Below, in pieces: positions 3,108 through 14,366 of a DNA stretch of 20,858 nucleotides (positions are counted from its first letter, which is position 1; each line of letters begins with the position of its first letter). The stretch covers positions 1 through 20,858 of IMG/VR virus record IMGVR_UViG_3300039310_000030, one strand, 5' to 3'. This stretch comes from a virus. A model generated the notes under the pieces. The model saw only the letters and a list, made by a program, of their open reading frames with translations, did not search any database and was not told the DNA's origin. A program made the position numbers and the translations under genes.

Positions 3108-3419
3108 ATGGAAGAAATAACAGAGACCGACTTCGTAACTCCTATGCCTAAATTTCCCGTTAGGCTAGCTAGAACATCTTGTATATGTCCTGAACCATTA
3201 GCGGACGGGTCCAGAGTAATATCTCCATCTTGCTGTAAATGTCATCGTTGGGAATATTTTAAACCAAAGGCCACCCGGCCGCCTAAAGTATATCATTTAC
3301 GCAACGAGAGAGACCTAAAACAAAAACGAATAATATCTGAAGAGACCCGCGCTAAACTAAGTAAAGCACGAAAAGGTAAACCTCCTAACAATAAAGGTAA
3401 ACCTAATAGCTCCATATAG
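3108..3419 (+). CDS. Cys-rich protein with a C-terminal NUMOD3 motif
   Basis: A 103-residue protein whose end (SEETRAKLSKARKGKPPNN) is a clear NUMOD3 DNA-binding motif as found in GIY-YIG and HNH homing endonucleases. The N-terminal half has a Cys/His cluster (CICP, then CCKCHRW) that could bind zinc. No HNH or GIY-YIG catalytic motif is visible, so this may be a DNA-binding remnant of a homing endonuclease or a short relative of unknown activity. There is no ribosome binding site before either the ATG at 3108 or the alternative GTG at 3090; I chose the ATG because the GTG lies within the predicted promoter. It ends 99 bases before the chosen terS start. Confidence 0.6.
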   Translation: MEEITETDFVTPMPKFPVRLARTSCICPEPLADGSRVISPSCCKCHRWEYFKPKATRPPKVYHLRNERDLKQKRIISEETRAKLSKARKGKPPNNKGKPNSSI

Positions 3420-3518
3420 CACATTAAAGACTAATACGTGCTCATTAAGGAACACGACCTGACAGTAGACAACCTAGACAACCTAAACAAGCAAATATCT
3501 GATAGGAAAATAGTTATA

Positions 3519-3854
3519 ATGGCTAAAGACAACAAAAAGATAGACTTAAAGCAACTAGAAGCTTTGTGCAACATTGGATGCACTATGAGCGAAGTTGCTG
3601 CTGTCTTTAATTGTTCAGAATCAACACTTAGCCGTAGATTCTCTAAATACTTCAAGAATGGTATAGAGAATGCAAAGATATCTCTCCGCAGAAAGCAGTA
3701 TGCGCTGGCGCTAGAAGGAAACGTGCCGTTACTTATTCATTTATCTAAGCATGTATTAAATCAGAACGATAAGGTTACTCTTGCAGGCGACAAAGAAGCT
3801 CCGCTTGAGATATTAGTTCGATATGTTGATGAGCCTGATTCCGAAGATCAATAG
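3519..3854 (+). CDS. terS: terminase small subunit
   Basis: The small terminase recognises the viral DNA packaging start and hands it to the large subunit. The 111-residue form starting at ATG 3519 has an N-terminal helix-turn-helix (residues ~11-42: LEALCNIGCTMSEVAAVF followed by NCSESTLSRRF), then the pattern seen in many phage small terminases: LRRKQYALALEGNVPLLIHLSKHVLNQ. A GTG at 3438 would add 27 residues but has no ribosome binding site; the ATG has AGGAAA about ten bases upstream. Position directly before the large subunit supports the call. An intrinsic terminator overlaps its last codons and stop. The packaging site is often inside or near this gene in related phages, but I cannot point to it. 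Confidence 0.88.
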   Translation: MAKDNKKIDLKQLEALCNIGCTMSEVAAVFNCSESTLSRRFSKYFKNGIENAKISLRRKQYALALEGNVPLLIHLSKHVLNQNDKVTLAGDKEAPLEILVRYVDEPDSEDQ

Positions 3855-3868
3855 GGATCGGGCTTTTT
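3832..3868 (+). terminator. intrinsic terminator between terS and terL
   Basis: AGCCTGATTCC (3832-3842) pairs with GGGATCGGGCT (3854-3864) over 11 bp (two G-U pairs) with an 11-base loop, followed by TTTTT (3864-3868). The hairpin includes the terS stop codon. It would limit transcription from terS into terL, so terL may need read-through or its own promoter; I see no convincing promoter in the short gap. Ribosomes finishing terS would cover the left arm, which could couple terS translation to read-through. Confidence 0.7.
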
Positions 3869-3903
3869 CTATGTAGAAACATATATTATGTAAGCAGGTC
3901 CTA

Positions 3904-5880
3904 ATGCCAGCAGTCGAAATACCTTTAATTCCTAATCAAAGGAAGTTACTGAAGGAATTAAGAACCGGTACGCATTCCGTAATAGGAGTGGGCGGAGGCA
4001 GAGGAAGCTCTAAGAGCTCCGGCGCCGACAGATGCATTCTTACTTTAATGGCAGAATTCCCTGGCATCAAGATCTGTCTGGTAATGAGAACATGGGTAGC
4101 TCAAGTTGTTCCATTCCATATAGAGCCTATCAAAACAGAGTTCCCTTGGGTAGCATCAGACCTAAAAGTAAGTCCTCCCGCAGTATTAAGAATTGGGAAA
4201 TCATCCTGTGAGTTTAAGTATGCTCAGAATTACGACCAGGTAGAGGAAGCTTTCAGGTCAGGTAATTATAATACAATTCTAATAGATCAAGCTGAGCAGT
4301 TTACACTAAAAGAAATAACTGAAATCCGCAAAGCTTGCAGGTCTATACTTCCTAAATTCCCTATAGCTAAACTTGTCTTGCTCTTTAACATGCGCGGGTC
4401 TTGTATACAAGACCTTAGGAAGATGTTCCATCTAAAAGAAGTAGGCGACCCTGAGGATTATATATTCTTTAAGTTCGACCCTTGGGATAACTACTACTGG
4501 GTACAAGAGGCTTTAAAAAAAGATGGATATTCTGTAATAGACTATTATAGATGGACTGACGATCAAAGAAAAGAATACGCTGCATTAAAAGGACCATATA
4601 CAAAAACGTTATTCGAAGGTGATCCTGTAATTTCCAAAGCCGACTGGGAAGGATCTTGGGATACAGTTGAAGGAGCCTACTTTGCTAACTCATTCGACTT
4701 GGAAGCTGTAAGATTAAATCCCAACCTTGTCGACCAGATTCAAAAGCCTTGGGCTAATTACTGGCTGTCTGGTGACTGGGGAGAAAAACACTATACAGCT
4801 ATATTGTGGCATTATCGTATTGCTTTAAAGCCAACAGAAGCAGCTCAATATCTTGGATGGACTGGACTTACAAAGCCTATAAATCTTATAGTAACTTATA
4901 GGGAGATGTGCGTTAATGAACGCACAACTACAGAAGTCGGCCGGCTTATAGTTGAAAGCACTCCAGCAATAGAGAAACCATTATTACACGCTTTCTATTT
5001 ATCTCCTGAGTGTGTAACAGAGGATCCAAACTCAGTAGGCTCACAGATTGGTAAAGAATTAAGACCAGCCGGCTTACCGTTACCTATAAAAGCCGATAAC
5101 GACCGTAAGGGAGGTTATACTCTTATGGAGAAGTTACTAAAAGCTGCTAAGTTTAAAGGAGTAGATCCCAACGGTATTCAATATGAGGATGCTTGGTTAA
5201 TATCAAGTGAATGTCCTCAATTACTGGCCGCCCTGCCTATATTAATGCGTGACCCAAACAATCTTGACAGTGTATTGAAGACAGACTTATCTACAGCAAA
5301 GATAGAACAAGACATATCAGAAGCTTGTTTTGCAGCAGGAACTATGATATGGACCAGAAGAGGGCAGGTTCCAATAGAACAAGTAACTACTAATGATTAT
5401 GTTATGACTCGTAAAGGCTGGCGTAGAATTAGACGCAGCTGGCTTAATAGAAAGAATGCCAGAGTAGTAAAAGCTACATTCTCTGATGGTACAGAAATAG
5501 TATGCACTCCAGAACACAAGTTCCATACCGATAAGGGTTGGCTTTCTTTGGATACTATCAGGTATGGTGATATAATTACTTCTCAAGAAAATGTGCTGCT
5601 ATTAGTAGAGTTGCAAGGGGCGACGTCCGAGGATGTATACGACCTTGAAGTAGAAGATGCTCATGAATTTTATGCCAATGGTCTATTAGTACATAATTGT
5701 CGCTATGGATTAAAGAGTATGTTAGCTCCAAAGAAGAAGACAGAGCAAGACATATTCAACGAAGCAATGAATGCAGCAACTCCAGCTCAGAGAATGACGT
5801 TAGCTTGGGCTCATGCTCAAAAGAAGAGTAAACCAAAGAAGCAATTTTTACCCCCTTCTTGGCAATCCGGGAGAAAGTAA
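3904..5880 (+). CDS. terL: terminase large subunit interrupted by a mini-intein
   Basis: This is the ATP-driven packaging motor and headful nuclease. Visible motifs: Walker A-type GVGGGRGSSKSS (28-39), Walker B-type TILIDQAE (124-131; the usual DE is DQAE), and the nuclease start LSGDWGEKHYTAI with D291. The nuclease end motif reads DISEA then, after 124 inserted residues, CRYGLKSML; joined, DISEACRYGL matches the family's final acidic motif with D470. The inserted part, residues 475-598, begins with Cys and ends in His-Asn before Cys599, as in inteins. Without it the protein is 534 residues, a usual terminase length. A ribosome binding site (AGG) precedes ATG by seven bases, and the stop abuts the next start (TAAATG). 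Function depends on protein splicing, because the intein separates parts of the nuclease centre. Confidence 0.95.
   Translation: MPAVEIPLIPNQRKLLKELRTGTHSVIGVGGGRGSSKSSGADRCILTLMAEFPGIKICLVMRTWVAQVVPFHIEPIKTEFPWVASDLKVSPPAVLRIGKSSCEFKYAQNYDQVEEAFRSGNYNTILIDQAEQFTLKEITEIRKACRSILPKFPIAKLVLLFNMRGSCIQDLRKMFHLKEVGDPEDYIFFKFDPWDNYYWVQEALKKDGYSVIDYYRWTDDQRKEYAALKGPYTKTLFEGDPVISKADWEGSWDTVEGAYFANSFDLEAVRLNPNLVDQIQKPWANYWLSGDWGEKHYTAILWHYRIALKPTEAAQYLGWTGLTKPINLIVTYREMCVNERTTTEVGRLIVESTPAIEKPLLHAFYLSPECVTEDPNSVGSQIGKELRPAGLPLPIKADNDRKGGYTLMEKLLKAAKFKGVDPNGIQYEDAWLISSECPQLLAALPILMRDPNNLDSVLKTDLSTAKIEQDISEACFAAGTMIWTRRGQVPIEQVTTNDYVMTRKGWRRIRRSWLNRKNARVVKATFSDGTEIVCTPEHKFHTDKGWLSLDTIRYGDIITSQENVLLLVELQGATSEDVYDLEVEDAHEFYANGLLVHNCRYGLKSMLAPKKKTEQDIFNEAMNAATPAQRMTLAWAHAQKKSKPKKQFLPPSWQSGRK
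5326..5697 (+). mobile_element. mini-intein in TerL nuclease motif (124 residues, no endonuclease domain)
   Basis: The segment has the expected Hint/intein blocks. Block A starts CFAAGTMIWTRRGQVPIEQV with Cys1. Block B contains GTEIVCTPEHKFHT with the TxxH pattern (T61, H64). Block F reads VYDLEVEDAHEFYANG, and block G ends LLVHN before Cys +1. Only about 20-25 residues lie between the two halves, so there is no LAGLIDADG or HNH homing domain. At 124 residues it is close to the lower size limit of natural inteins. Insertion is five residues after the presumed catalytic D470, the sort of conserved site inteins favour. All residues needed for Cys-type splicing are present, so it is probably active. 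Without its own nuclease it cannot home alone. Confidence 0.92.
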
Positions 5881-8977: not shown

Positions 8978-9589
8978 ATGAAGCAGCTTAAAGCACTTAT
9001 ACTTCGTCATGGAGATACTTCTTTAAACGCTTCCAACTGTTATAGAGGCTGGACTGATATTCCTCTTAACAGTAAAGGAAAGGCCCAAGCAGTTGTCGCT
9101 GCCAACTTCTTGAGTAAGTATCCTATAAAGACTATTTTATGCAGTCCTCTGTTAAGAGCGTTTCTAACAGCAAGCATTGTAGCTGCTAAGCATGACGTAG
9201 AAGTAACTCAGACCCGCGGCCTGCTCCCTTGGAATATTGGTTTCTTCTCAGGACATAATAGAGACGAACATGGAGATGCTCTTAGGTTGTTTATAGAATC
9301 TCCTGACGTAGTAGTTCCAGGGGGAGAAAGCTTGACAGCGTTCGAAAACAGAAGTTATGCTTTCTTTGAACACTACCTTAACAACTCAGAAGGATTGGTT
9401 CTGTTCGTAGGTCATACATCTAACGTGACTGCTCTCGTCAATGCTACAGAAGGCGCCAACAAAGTAGAGCCTGAGTTTGGAGATAGCGTTCAGCCTGGAG
9501 GAGTAGCTGCTATATACTTCGACGGAAAGAACCATACAGTAGAAACAATTTTAGGTAAACCAGAAGAAGCAGTATTTGGAGCGTCATAA
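8978..9589 (+). CDS. histidine phosphatase (phosphoglycerate mutase-like)
   Basis: The 203-residue protein has the complete histidine-phosphatase core: LILRHG with catalytic His11 flanked by R10 and G12, the CSPLLRAFLTA motif with R60, the acid in PGGES (E117) and the second histidine in VGHTSNV (H146). These enzymes form a phospho-histidine and remove or move phosphate on sugars, nucleotides or proteins; the substrate cannot be read from the sequence. All active-site residues are kept, so it is probably active. It begins directly at the portal stop (TAAATG) and its own stop overlaps the next start (TAATG), so it is translated with the head genes. A metabolic enzyme inside a head cassette is unusual; it may act on a small molecule, on a virion protein, or simply be carried there. 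Confidence 0.9.
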   Translation: MKQLKALILRHGDTSLNASNCYRGWTDIPLNSKGKAQAVVAANFLSKYPIKTILCSPLLRAFLTASIVAAKHDVEVTQTRGLLPWNIGFFSGHNRDEHGDALRLFIESPDVVVPGGESLTAFENRSYAFFEHYLNNSEGLVLFVGHTSNVTALVNATEGANKVEPEFGDSVQPGGVAAIYFDGKNHTVETILGKPEEAVFGAS

Positions 9590-10035
9590 TGCCGTATAAA
9601 GATCCTATTAAGGCAAAAGAACAATCTAAGATTAGAGGCAAAAAATGGTGGGATAGAAATAAAGAATCAAGAAGATTAATGAGAAAAAAATATGATGAAG
9701 AACATAGAATAGAAAATGCCAATAGGTCTAAAGATTGGTATATAAAAAATAAAGACAAACATAAAAATAATGAATTAAGGAGGTTATATGGAATAGGAAT
9801 AGAAGTAAAAAGACAAATGTATATTGATCAAAAAGGAATATGTCCAGTTTGTAACAAAATATTAGATTTAGATTTTATGAAGTCATGTGTAGATCACGAT
9901 CATAATACTGGAAAAGTTCGTAAGTTATTGCATCGTTACTGTAATGTGTTAGTTGGAGTAGAAGAGAATCAACCAGGAATTTATAAAAGACTTTTGGAGT
10001 ATTTAAATGCCAGCAACCTCGAAAAAGCAGTTTAG
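9589..10035 (+). CDS. endonuclease VII-like HNH nuclease
   Basis: The C-terminal half matches the recombination endonuclease VII/HNH zinc fold: GICPVCNK (C85, C88), CVDHDHNTGKVRKLL (D102, H103, H105) and HRYCNVLVG (H115, C118, N119). In this family the second metal pair is normally CxxC; here it is HxxC, giving a Cys3His site that could still hold zinc. The N-terminal 65 residues are Lys/Arg-rich and helical, typical of DNA-binding leaders in stand-alone versions. Such proteins resolve branched DNA or act as mobile nucleases. The gene is more AT-rich than its neighbours, its start overlaps the phosphatase stop and its last 29 bases overlap the next gene, suggesting insertion between two genes that were once adjacent. 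Confidence 0.85.
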   Translation: MPYKDPIKAKEQSKIRGKKWWDRNKESRRLMRKKYDEEHRIENANRSKDWYIKNKDKHKNNELRRLYGIGIEVKRQMYIDQKGICPVCNKILDLDFMKSCVDHDHNTGKVRKLLHRYCNVLVGVEENQPGIYKRLLEYLNASNLEKAV

Positions 10036-13671: not shown

Positions 13672-13709
13672 GTTCATGGTATTATTTCATTAGAGGTAAT
13701 ACCATGAAC
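13672..13709 (+). promoter_or_regulatory. 13-bp hairpin sequestering the GIY-YIG start codon and ribosome binding site
   Basis: GTTCATGGTATTA (13672-13684) is perfectly complementary to TAATACCATGAAC (13697-13709), leaving a 12-base loop. The ribosome binding site TAGAGG (13691-13696) is in the loop and the ATG (13704-13706) is inside the right arm. In the full transcript from the capsid side the start would be hidden. This mirrors translational silencing known for some phage T4 homing endonucleases such as I-TevI, where an RNA hairpin blocks the ribosome binding site. Confidence 0.8.
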
Positions 13710-14366
13710 AAGTTTTATGTTTATAAGTATATTCGTTCTAAAAATAGCAAGCATGGTCCAGCAGGTTCTCCTTACTATATAGGTAAGGGTTGTGGAAAAC
13801 GTGCTTGGAGTATAAAAGGACATAGAATTAAGCCGCCAGTAAATACTGACAACATTATTTTTATTTCAACAGGAATAAGCAACGAAGAAGCTTTATGCTT
13901 AGAGAAATCTTTAATTAAACAGTATGGTCGTATAGATTTAGGTACTGGTTGTTTATGGAATATGACAGACGGAGGAGACAATCCTCCAGGAATGAAAGGC
14001 AAGCACCATTCTGCTAAATCCAAAACTAAAATGAGAGCAGCCAAGTTAGGAAAGAAAACTGGTCCTCATTCTGCTGAATGGAATGCTAACATATCAAAAA
14101 GTCAGACAGGTAAAGTTGTAAGTCCTGAAACTTGCGCATTAATTTCTAAGAATCATAATCATCCTAAAAATTTATATACACCTGAGTGGTGCGAAAAAGT
14201 AAGTAAATCTAAAATTGGAAAGAAAAGACCTGATATGTTATCAGGCTCTGAGCATCAAAAGAAATGTGCGGCAAGTAATAAGGGAGGCAAACGTTCTCCA
14301 GAAACTATTCTGAAGATGCGTGAAGCAGCGAAGAAACGTGAAGCAAAGAAACGTAATAAAACTTAA
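13704..14366 (+). CDS. GIY-YIG homing endonuclease with NUMOD3 repeats
   Basis: Residues 1-95 form a GIY-YIG nuclease: FYVYKYI (Y5, Y7), SPYYIGKG (Y24-G29), R33, the catalytic glutamate in ALCLEKSL (E67) and LWNMTDGG (N86). The rest carries several NUMOD3 DNA-binding repeats (for example HSAKSKTKMRAAKLGKK, VSPETCALISKN, TPEWCEKVSKSKIGKK, SPETILKMREAAKKRE). This layout is that of stand-alone phage homing endonucleases that cut a related genome lacking the gene and copy themselves in. All catalytic residues seen are present. It lies between the capsid gene and the GroES-like gene, with codons rich in AGA, AAA and ATA, unlike the capsid. Its start codon is buried in a 13-bp hairpin. Confidence 0.93.
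   Translation: MNKFYVYKYIRSKNSKHGPAGSPYYIGKGCGKRAWSIKGHRIKPPVNTDNIIFISTGISNEEALCLEKSLIKQYGRIDLGTGCLWNMTDGGDNPPGMKGKHHSAKSKTKMRAAKLGKKTGPHSAEWNANISKSQTGKVVSPETCALISKNHNHPKNLYTPEWCEKVSKSKIGKKRPDMLSGSEHQKKCAASNKGGKRSPETILKMREAAKKREAKKRNKT

Follow-up and report, generated by a model that had tools for sequence, protein, structure and literature searches.

The large terminase subunit (TerL) is the commonest intein host among phage proteins, and several mycobacteriophage TerL inteins have been tested for splicing (PMC5050341). An intein carrying an HNH endonuclease is also known (Dalgaard 1997, as cited in PMC5050341). In Microcystis phage Mic1, a mini-intein interrupts the nuclease domain of TerL at motif III, running from C to N between DHL and CDALRY (PMC7156551). 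Endonucleases hidden out of frame have been described in non-splicing insertions. The ShiLan domain, inserted in a phage gene, encodes in the third frame a 195-aa HNH endonuclease with zinc fingers while the host frame stays open, and its +1 residue is Thr or Ser in invaded alleles and Pro in empty ones; Pacc40 is another hidden-HNH insertion, and neither of the two is considered to splice (PMC11855218).

Here we analyse a fragment of a tailed-phage genome that makes up a whole IMG/VR record (20,858 bases; hereafter the window) and whose TerL gene holds a putative intein at motif III. The Mic1 mini-intein occupies the same motif; it differs in being 146 aa long, in sitting in another register of the motif, and in having no recognisable hidden HNH tail. 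ShiLan is without an intein splicing domain and is believed to remain part of its protein, whereas in the relatives of the window element the HNH gene is nested in a true intein. The in-frame HNH intein described by Dalgaard in 1997 is reportedly that of Synechocystis GyrB. In that case the intein protein includes the HNH as one of its domains, whereas in the window's relatives the HNH has a reading frame of its own. Split inteins in fractured genes are said to have been described by Dassa in 2009, with an endonuclease of a family different from the hidden HNH. Natural gp41-1 is split and resides in a helicase, unlike the contiguous window intein in TerL motif III; its split, which we take to be 88/37, lies near the place of the HNH gene in the relatives of the window intein.

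The intein and its host gene

The TerL precursor gene occupies positions 3904–5880 on the plus strand and comprises 658 codons, 534 residues of which would remain after splicing. It matches phrog_2 (E=1e-18). When a profile of the TerL family was searched against PDB sequences, nothing matched; a fold search succeeded instead, Foldseek matching the AlphaFold model to the D6E and Sf6 large terminases and the P22 nuclease domain (5oe8, 4idh, 4dkw). In an alignment of 22 TerLs, D470 and D291 are invariant, D398 is nearly so, and position 473 is Asp or Glu in all rows but one, which is gapped at this point. D291 and D398 are candidates for motifs I and II and, together with D470, fit the acidic residues expected of an RNase H-like nuclease. 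On this assignment the element lies inside motif III: D470-I-S-E473-A474 (5311–5325, plus strand) immediately precedes the intein, which starts after residue 474, four residues past D470, and covers TerL residues 475–598. The initial annotation had likewise placed an intein in the nuclease motif near D470. As the insertion site touches the nuclease centre, TerL nuclease function, and with it headful cutting, would probably wait on splicing. Four intein-free TerLs that are 75–76% identical to that of the window (L001, L002, L182, and L183) miss exactly these 124 residues, and the segment is precisely absent from further homologous TerLs as well.

The element (5326–5697, plus strand) runs from C1 (C475), the N-terminal nucleophile of block A, to N124. 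It matches Pfam Intein_splicing (5e-13) and NCBIfam intein_Nterm and intein_Cterm, all above the curated cut-offs, and its best sequence match among solved inteins is gp41-1 (6qaz, 4e-12). Block B reads TPEH at intein residues 61–64 (5506–5517, plus strand), T61 and H64 being invariant in alignment A2. The C-terminal splicing blocks F and G (VYDLEVEDAHEFYANGLLVHN; 5635–5697, plus strand; TIGR01443) end in H123-N124, and the next codon (5698–5700, plus strand) supplies a +1 extein Cys (C599), where empty alleles of the same clade have Ala or Val; the residues required of a class-1 intein are thus in place. A Hint fold is indicated by the matches to solved inteins and by Foldseek matches of the precursor model to 6qaz, 6riy, and 6bs8, the confidence of that model being low within the intein. 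gp41-1 (6qaz, 6riz) was also the best intein match of the window model and is of similar minimal size. The whole intein lies within a single ORF (3904–5880), and its splicing blocks set it apart from ShiLan-type insertions, which hide an HNH without such blocks. Pfam and NCBIfam detected no endonuclease between blocks B and F. At 124 aa it is the shortest of 71 related inteins compared, in agreement with its initial annotation as a very short mini-intein. Judged by its sequence, we conclude that the window element is a contiguous class-1 mini-intein.

The HNH gene in frame +2 and its remnant

Relatives were collected by scanning viral contigs, GTDB contigs, and phage records for the intein and its family. 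The closest inteins at the same TerL site carry ~175 additional codons between the splicing blocks; among them, the full-length inteins of L042, L187, and L005 occupy a site identical to that of the window. Read in the intein frame, the insert is featureless and the splicing domains are all that can be recognised; read in frame +2, it encodes an HNH_3 endonuclease, above the Pfam cut-off, with C-terminal zinc fingers. Over all fetched loci, intein–HNH pairings were found 99 times in frame +2 and once in frame 0, in Lactobacillus phage CL2, whose gene is fractured. Deduplication left 73–74 distinct hidden-HNH cases in frame +2, and loci excluded by the first filter showed the same HNH frame when rechecked. 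The hidden gene starts just past block B and mostly stops 43–55 nt before the intein end, within block F. A few inserts gave no HNH match (e.g., L058, L113, and L075), and no hidden HNH was present in the longer inteins (413–485 aa) that belong to other families.

By sequence, I-HmuI, a homing endonuclease (1u3e, E=0.007), is the solved relative nearest to the hidden HNH. The model of the hidden HNH reached a pLDDT of 92.9, and a Foldseek search of this model against the PDB returned nothing at E≤0.001, with weak zinc-finger matches only. Our first hidden-HNH alignment was too diverse to scan collections. In the open-licence PMC literature that we searched, we found no report of a splicing intein with an HNH gene nested within it in frame +2 or otherwise out of frame. 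Unannotated HNHs lie within genes annotated only as terminase large subunit in Acinetobacter phage Highwayman (L024), Tetrasphaera phage TJE1 (L026), and Rhodobacteraceae phage LS06-2018-MD07 (L022). One short stretch (L135) holds two hidden-HNH inteins (1730–2743 and 3176–4129), both with the HNH in +2, and another locus (L012, 4001–4789) has one in a gene judged by eye to encode a DegT-like aminotransferase, not a packaging protein.

Between L042 and L187, amino acid identity is 68% in the hidden frame versus 42% in the intein frame and 41% in the third frame. In all nine pairs compared, substitutions concentrate at hidden-frame third positions, the hidden frame being the conserved one, and the intein frame of the insert drifts like the unused third frame apart from staying stop-free. 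It is open in 50 of 50 inserts, whereas shuffling the synonymous codons of the HNH gave a mean of 2.5 stops and the third frame has 15; this openness was partly selected for, as the sets were found via ORFs holding both splicing halves. We conclude that purifying selection acts on the hidden HNH frame: the endonuclease is selected and the intein frame is merely held open.

Signals for expression of the hidden gene are heterogeneous. A Shine–Dalgarno sequence of at least 4 nt precedes 17 of the 50 hidden starts, many others having no clear site. A TGATATAAT-like box recurs exactly 6 nt upstream of the hidden start codon, with 7 or 8 of its 8 bases matched in 15 of 39 cases (e.g., L088 and L054). 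The -10-like signal scores 4.62 in the relatives versus 3.98 (sd 0.12) in synonymous shuffles, the sequences being related and an in-frame Gly-Asp motif contributing to the score. Tentatively, the box may act as an internal promoter that gives rise to a leaderless mRNA. The window itself has TGATATAAT, an extended -10-like box, at 5568–5576 (plus strand). We also considered programmed -1 frameshifting, which would yield an intein–HNH fusion; in elements with the canonical GD codons, however, these create a TGA in the hidden frame, 12 nt ahead of the start codon, and separate initiation is then the likelier route.

The window copy retains the end of this gene. In frame +2, SRKCAAISRVARGDVRGCIRP and a TGA stop (5583–5648, plus strand) align with the C terminus of the L042 hidden HNH (SRECAAVSRIAAGGVRGRVRS, followed by its stop) and also match the HNH tails of L187, L190, L005, and L010. 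The match scores 70–74, compared with a mean best score of 33 in recodings, and when the intein peptide was recoded synonymously 5000 times, 1 recoding reached the observed score (P=0.0002, an optimistic value as the sequences are related). The other five frames of the window intein gave no HNH-tail match. What is left of the HNH is its last 21 codons and the stop; the initial description of an intein with no endonuclease holds, but the copy does have this out-of-frame tail. In the intein tree, the window copy groups with five inteins, all of which carry a hidden HNH (support 99/83). The mini-inteins of L046, L064, and L100 also retain HNH tails, of differing lengths, which suggests that the loss probably occurred repeatedly. 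Mini and full forms interleave in this weakly resolved tree, and the direction of change elsewhere in it is uncertain. The window copy itself reads as a deletion derivative of a full element. It also appears homing-dead: without the HNH, it would spread only via ordinary recombination or with an enzyme supplied in trans.

Mobility, the +1 residue, and neighbouring elements

The insertion site is polymorphic, occurring empty, with a mini-intein, or with a full element. The inteins of the window and L005 are 65% identical, whereas their host TerLs are 38% identical; as the intein is the closer of the two, we conclude that the element moved horizontally between lineages. The +1 residue is Cys (five) or Ser (one) in all six intein-bearing TerLs and neither in any of 16 intein-free TerLs, which have Ala, Val, Leu, or Ile instead. 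Since Cys or Ser at +1 tracks the intein, the element apparently supplies the nucleophile itself, in line with an earlier speculation on inteins (PMC11855218). At motif III the same intein family takes several registers, and it occurs at motif I too.

At five loci (L031, L032, L033, L034, and L036), terminase genes have a free-standing relative of the hidden HNH beside them, and no intein match was found in the fetched stretches of these loci. Phages with such a gene next to terL include BP10, EauM-23, PAE1, and SN1. PMC10448857 discusses a terminase-assisting HNH of HK97 in the same neighbourhood. Such free-standing genes beside terL are a plausible source of the nested HNH.

In Brochothrix phage BL3 (L027, 1936–2607) and Lactobacillus phage CL2 (L035, 1650–2760), TerL is fractured at motif III: IntN is fused to the N-terminal part of TerL, IntC and the C-terminal part are on a later ORF, and between them lies an HNH gene in CL2 and only an HNH remnant in BL3. 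With IntN and IntC on separate ORFs, both resemble the fractured genes attributed to Dassa, whereas the window gene is contiguous. They look like candidate natural split inteins, split descendants of this family.

The ~20 kb of the window contain four more homing-type endonuclease genes (1071–1805, 1826–2569, 9589–10035, and 13704–14366), which comprise phrog_374 and phrog_99 HNHs, an endonuclease VII, and a phrog_314 homing endonuclease with NUMOD3. Just upstream of the two HNH genes, a 181-aa ORF (215–760) matches an EcoRI-type adenine methylase profile of 345 positions and looks truncated. A histidine phosphatase or alpha-ribazole phosphatase-like gene (8978–9586) lies just downstream of a portal-like gene and is kept in L002, L186, and L187. 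A contig 99.9% identical to the window (L003, IMGVR_UViG_3300039412_000133) begins at the base corresponding to window position 5704, 7 nt past the 3' end of the intein, possibly an assembly break where alleles with and without the intein coexist.

Origin of the minimal form

We consider it highly probable that the window element is a spliceable intein left over from a mobile element whose +2-frame HNH gene was deleted. Translation would give the full-length precursor, from which the intein would excise and join D470-I-S-E-A to C-R-Y-G, rebuilding motif III, after which TerL could package and cut DNA. The intact element would combine a splicing intein with an HNH_3-type homing endonuclease gene set between the splicing blocks. 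Made as a separate protein, the HNH would cleave terL alleles without the intein at the codons for motif III, whereupon repair would copy the intein together with the +1 Cys codon. A deletion of ~175 codons would then have removed all of the HNH gene save its tail, leaving the intein splicing-competent and no longer self-mobile. We infer that the window element splices and that the HNH of its relatives is expressed and cuts the terL site.

The initial annotation proposed instead that the intein might be a timing or stress switch on packaging, that is, a domesticated mini-intein whose conditional splicing in response to redox state, temperature, or metal times the TerL nuclease. Its position at the active-site motif would suit such a role, and a similar idea was put forward without a test for the TerL inteins of phage Mic1 (PMC7156551). 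However, the element is absent from the closest TerL relatives, its site is polymorphic, the intein is closer than the TerLs of distant hosts, as expected of horizontal transfer, and the mini form is conserved within no lineage that we found. Nothing indicates regulated splicing, and the remnant of a homing element explains the copy, so we regard a switch as very unlikely. A primordial mini-intein that never had an endonuclease, with the HNH invading sister inteins later, would agree with the mixture of mini and full forms on the intein tree and with the free-standing HNH relatives beside terL. It is disfavoured by the 21 HNH-tail codons that the window keeps where they would be expected, in frame +2, by the grouping with five hidden-HNH inteins, and by the HNH tails in L046, L064, and L100; we give it little credence. 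Least probable, and in our view hardly tenable, is a segment retained unspliced as an insertion tolerated in TerL. The ShiLan insertion, also hiding a third-frame HNH, is thought to be of this kind (PMC11855218), yet it is without splicing blocks, whereas all class-1 splicing residues are present in the window element; moreover, a retained insert next to D470 should disrupt motif III, and the +1 Cys tracks the intein.

Decay of a mobile intein through loss of its nested HNH gene thus remains our preferred account. The hidden out-of-frame HNH deletion that lies behind the small size, like the Ala-to-Cys change at +1, had been missed in the initial annotation. With somewhat less confidence, we think it probable that phage inteins, many of them in terminase nuclease motifs, have the homing endonuclease encoded by a separate gene that overlaps them in frame +2 and has its own internal start, perhaps on a leaderless mRNA from the extended -10 box 6 nt upstream. 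Splicing and homing would then be carried out by separate proteins, and mini forms (the window) and split forms (BL3 and CL2) would arise by decay of the nested gene.

The deletion of a nested gene, its scar still readable, would explain the natural origin of a minimal intein. The parent family departs from the textbook view, in which the endonuclease of an intein is one of its domains, and entails dual coding over ~200 codons in public phage genomes annotated as terminase only. The association at +1 offers direct comparative support for an intein bringing its own nucleophile by co-conversion. Mini-inteins of such size are useful protein-engineering parts, and scanning of hidden frames should reveal unannotated endonucleases in many “domainless” inteins.
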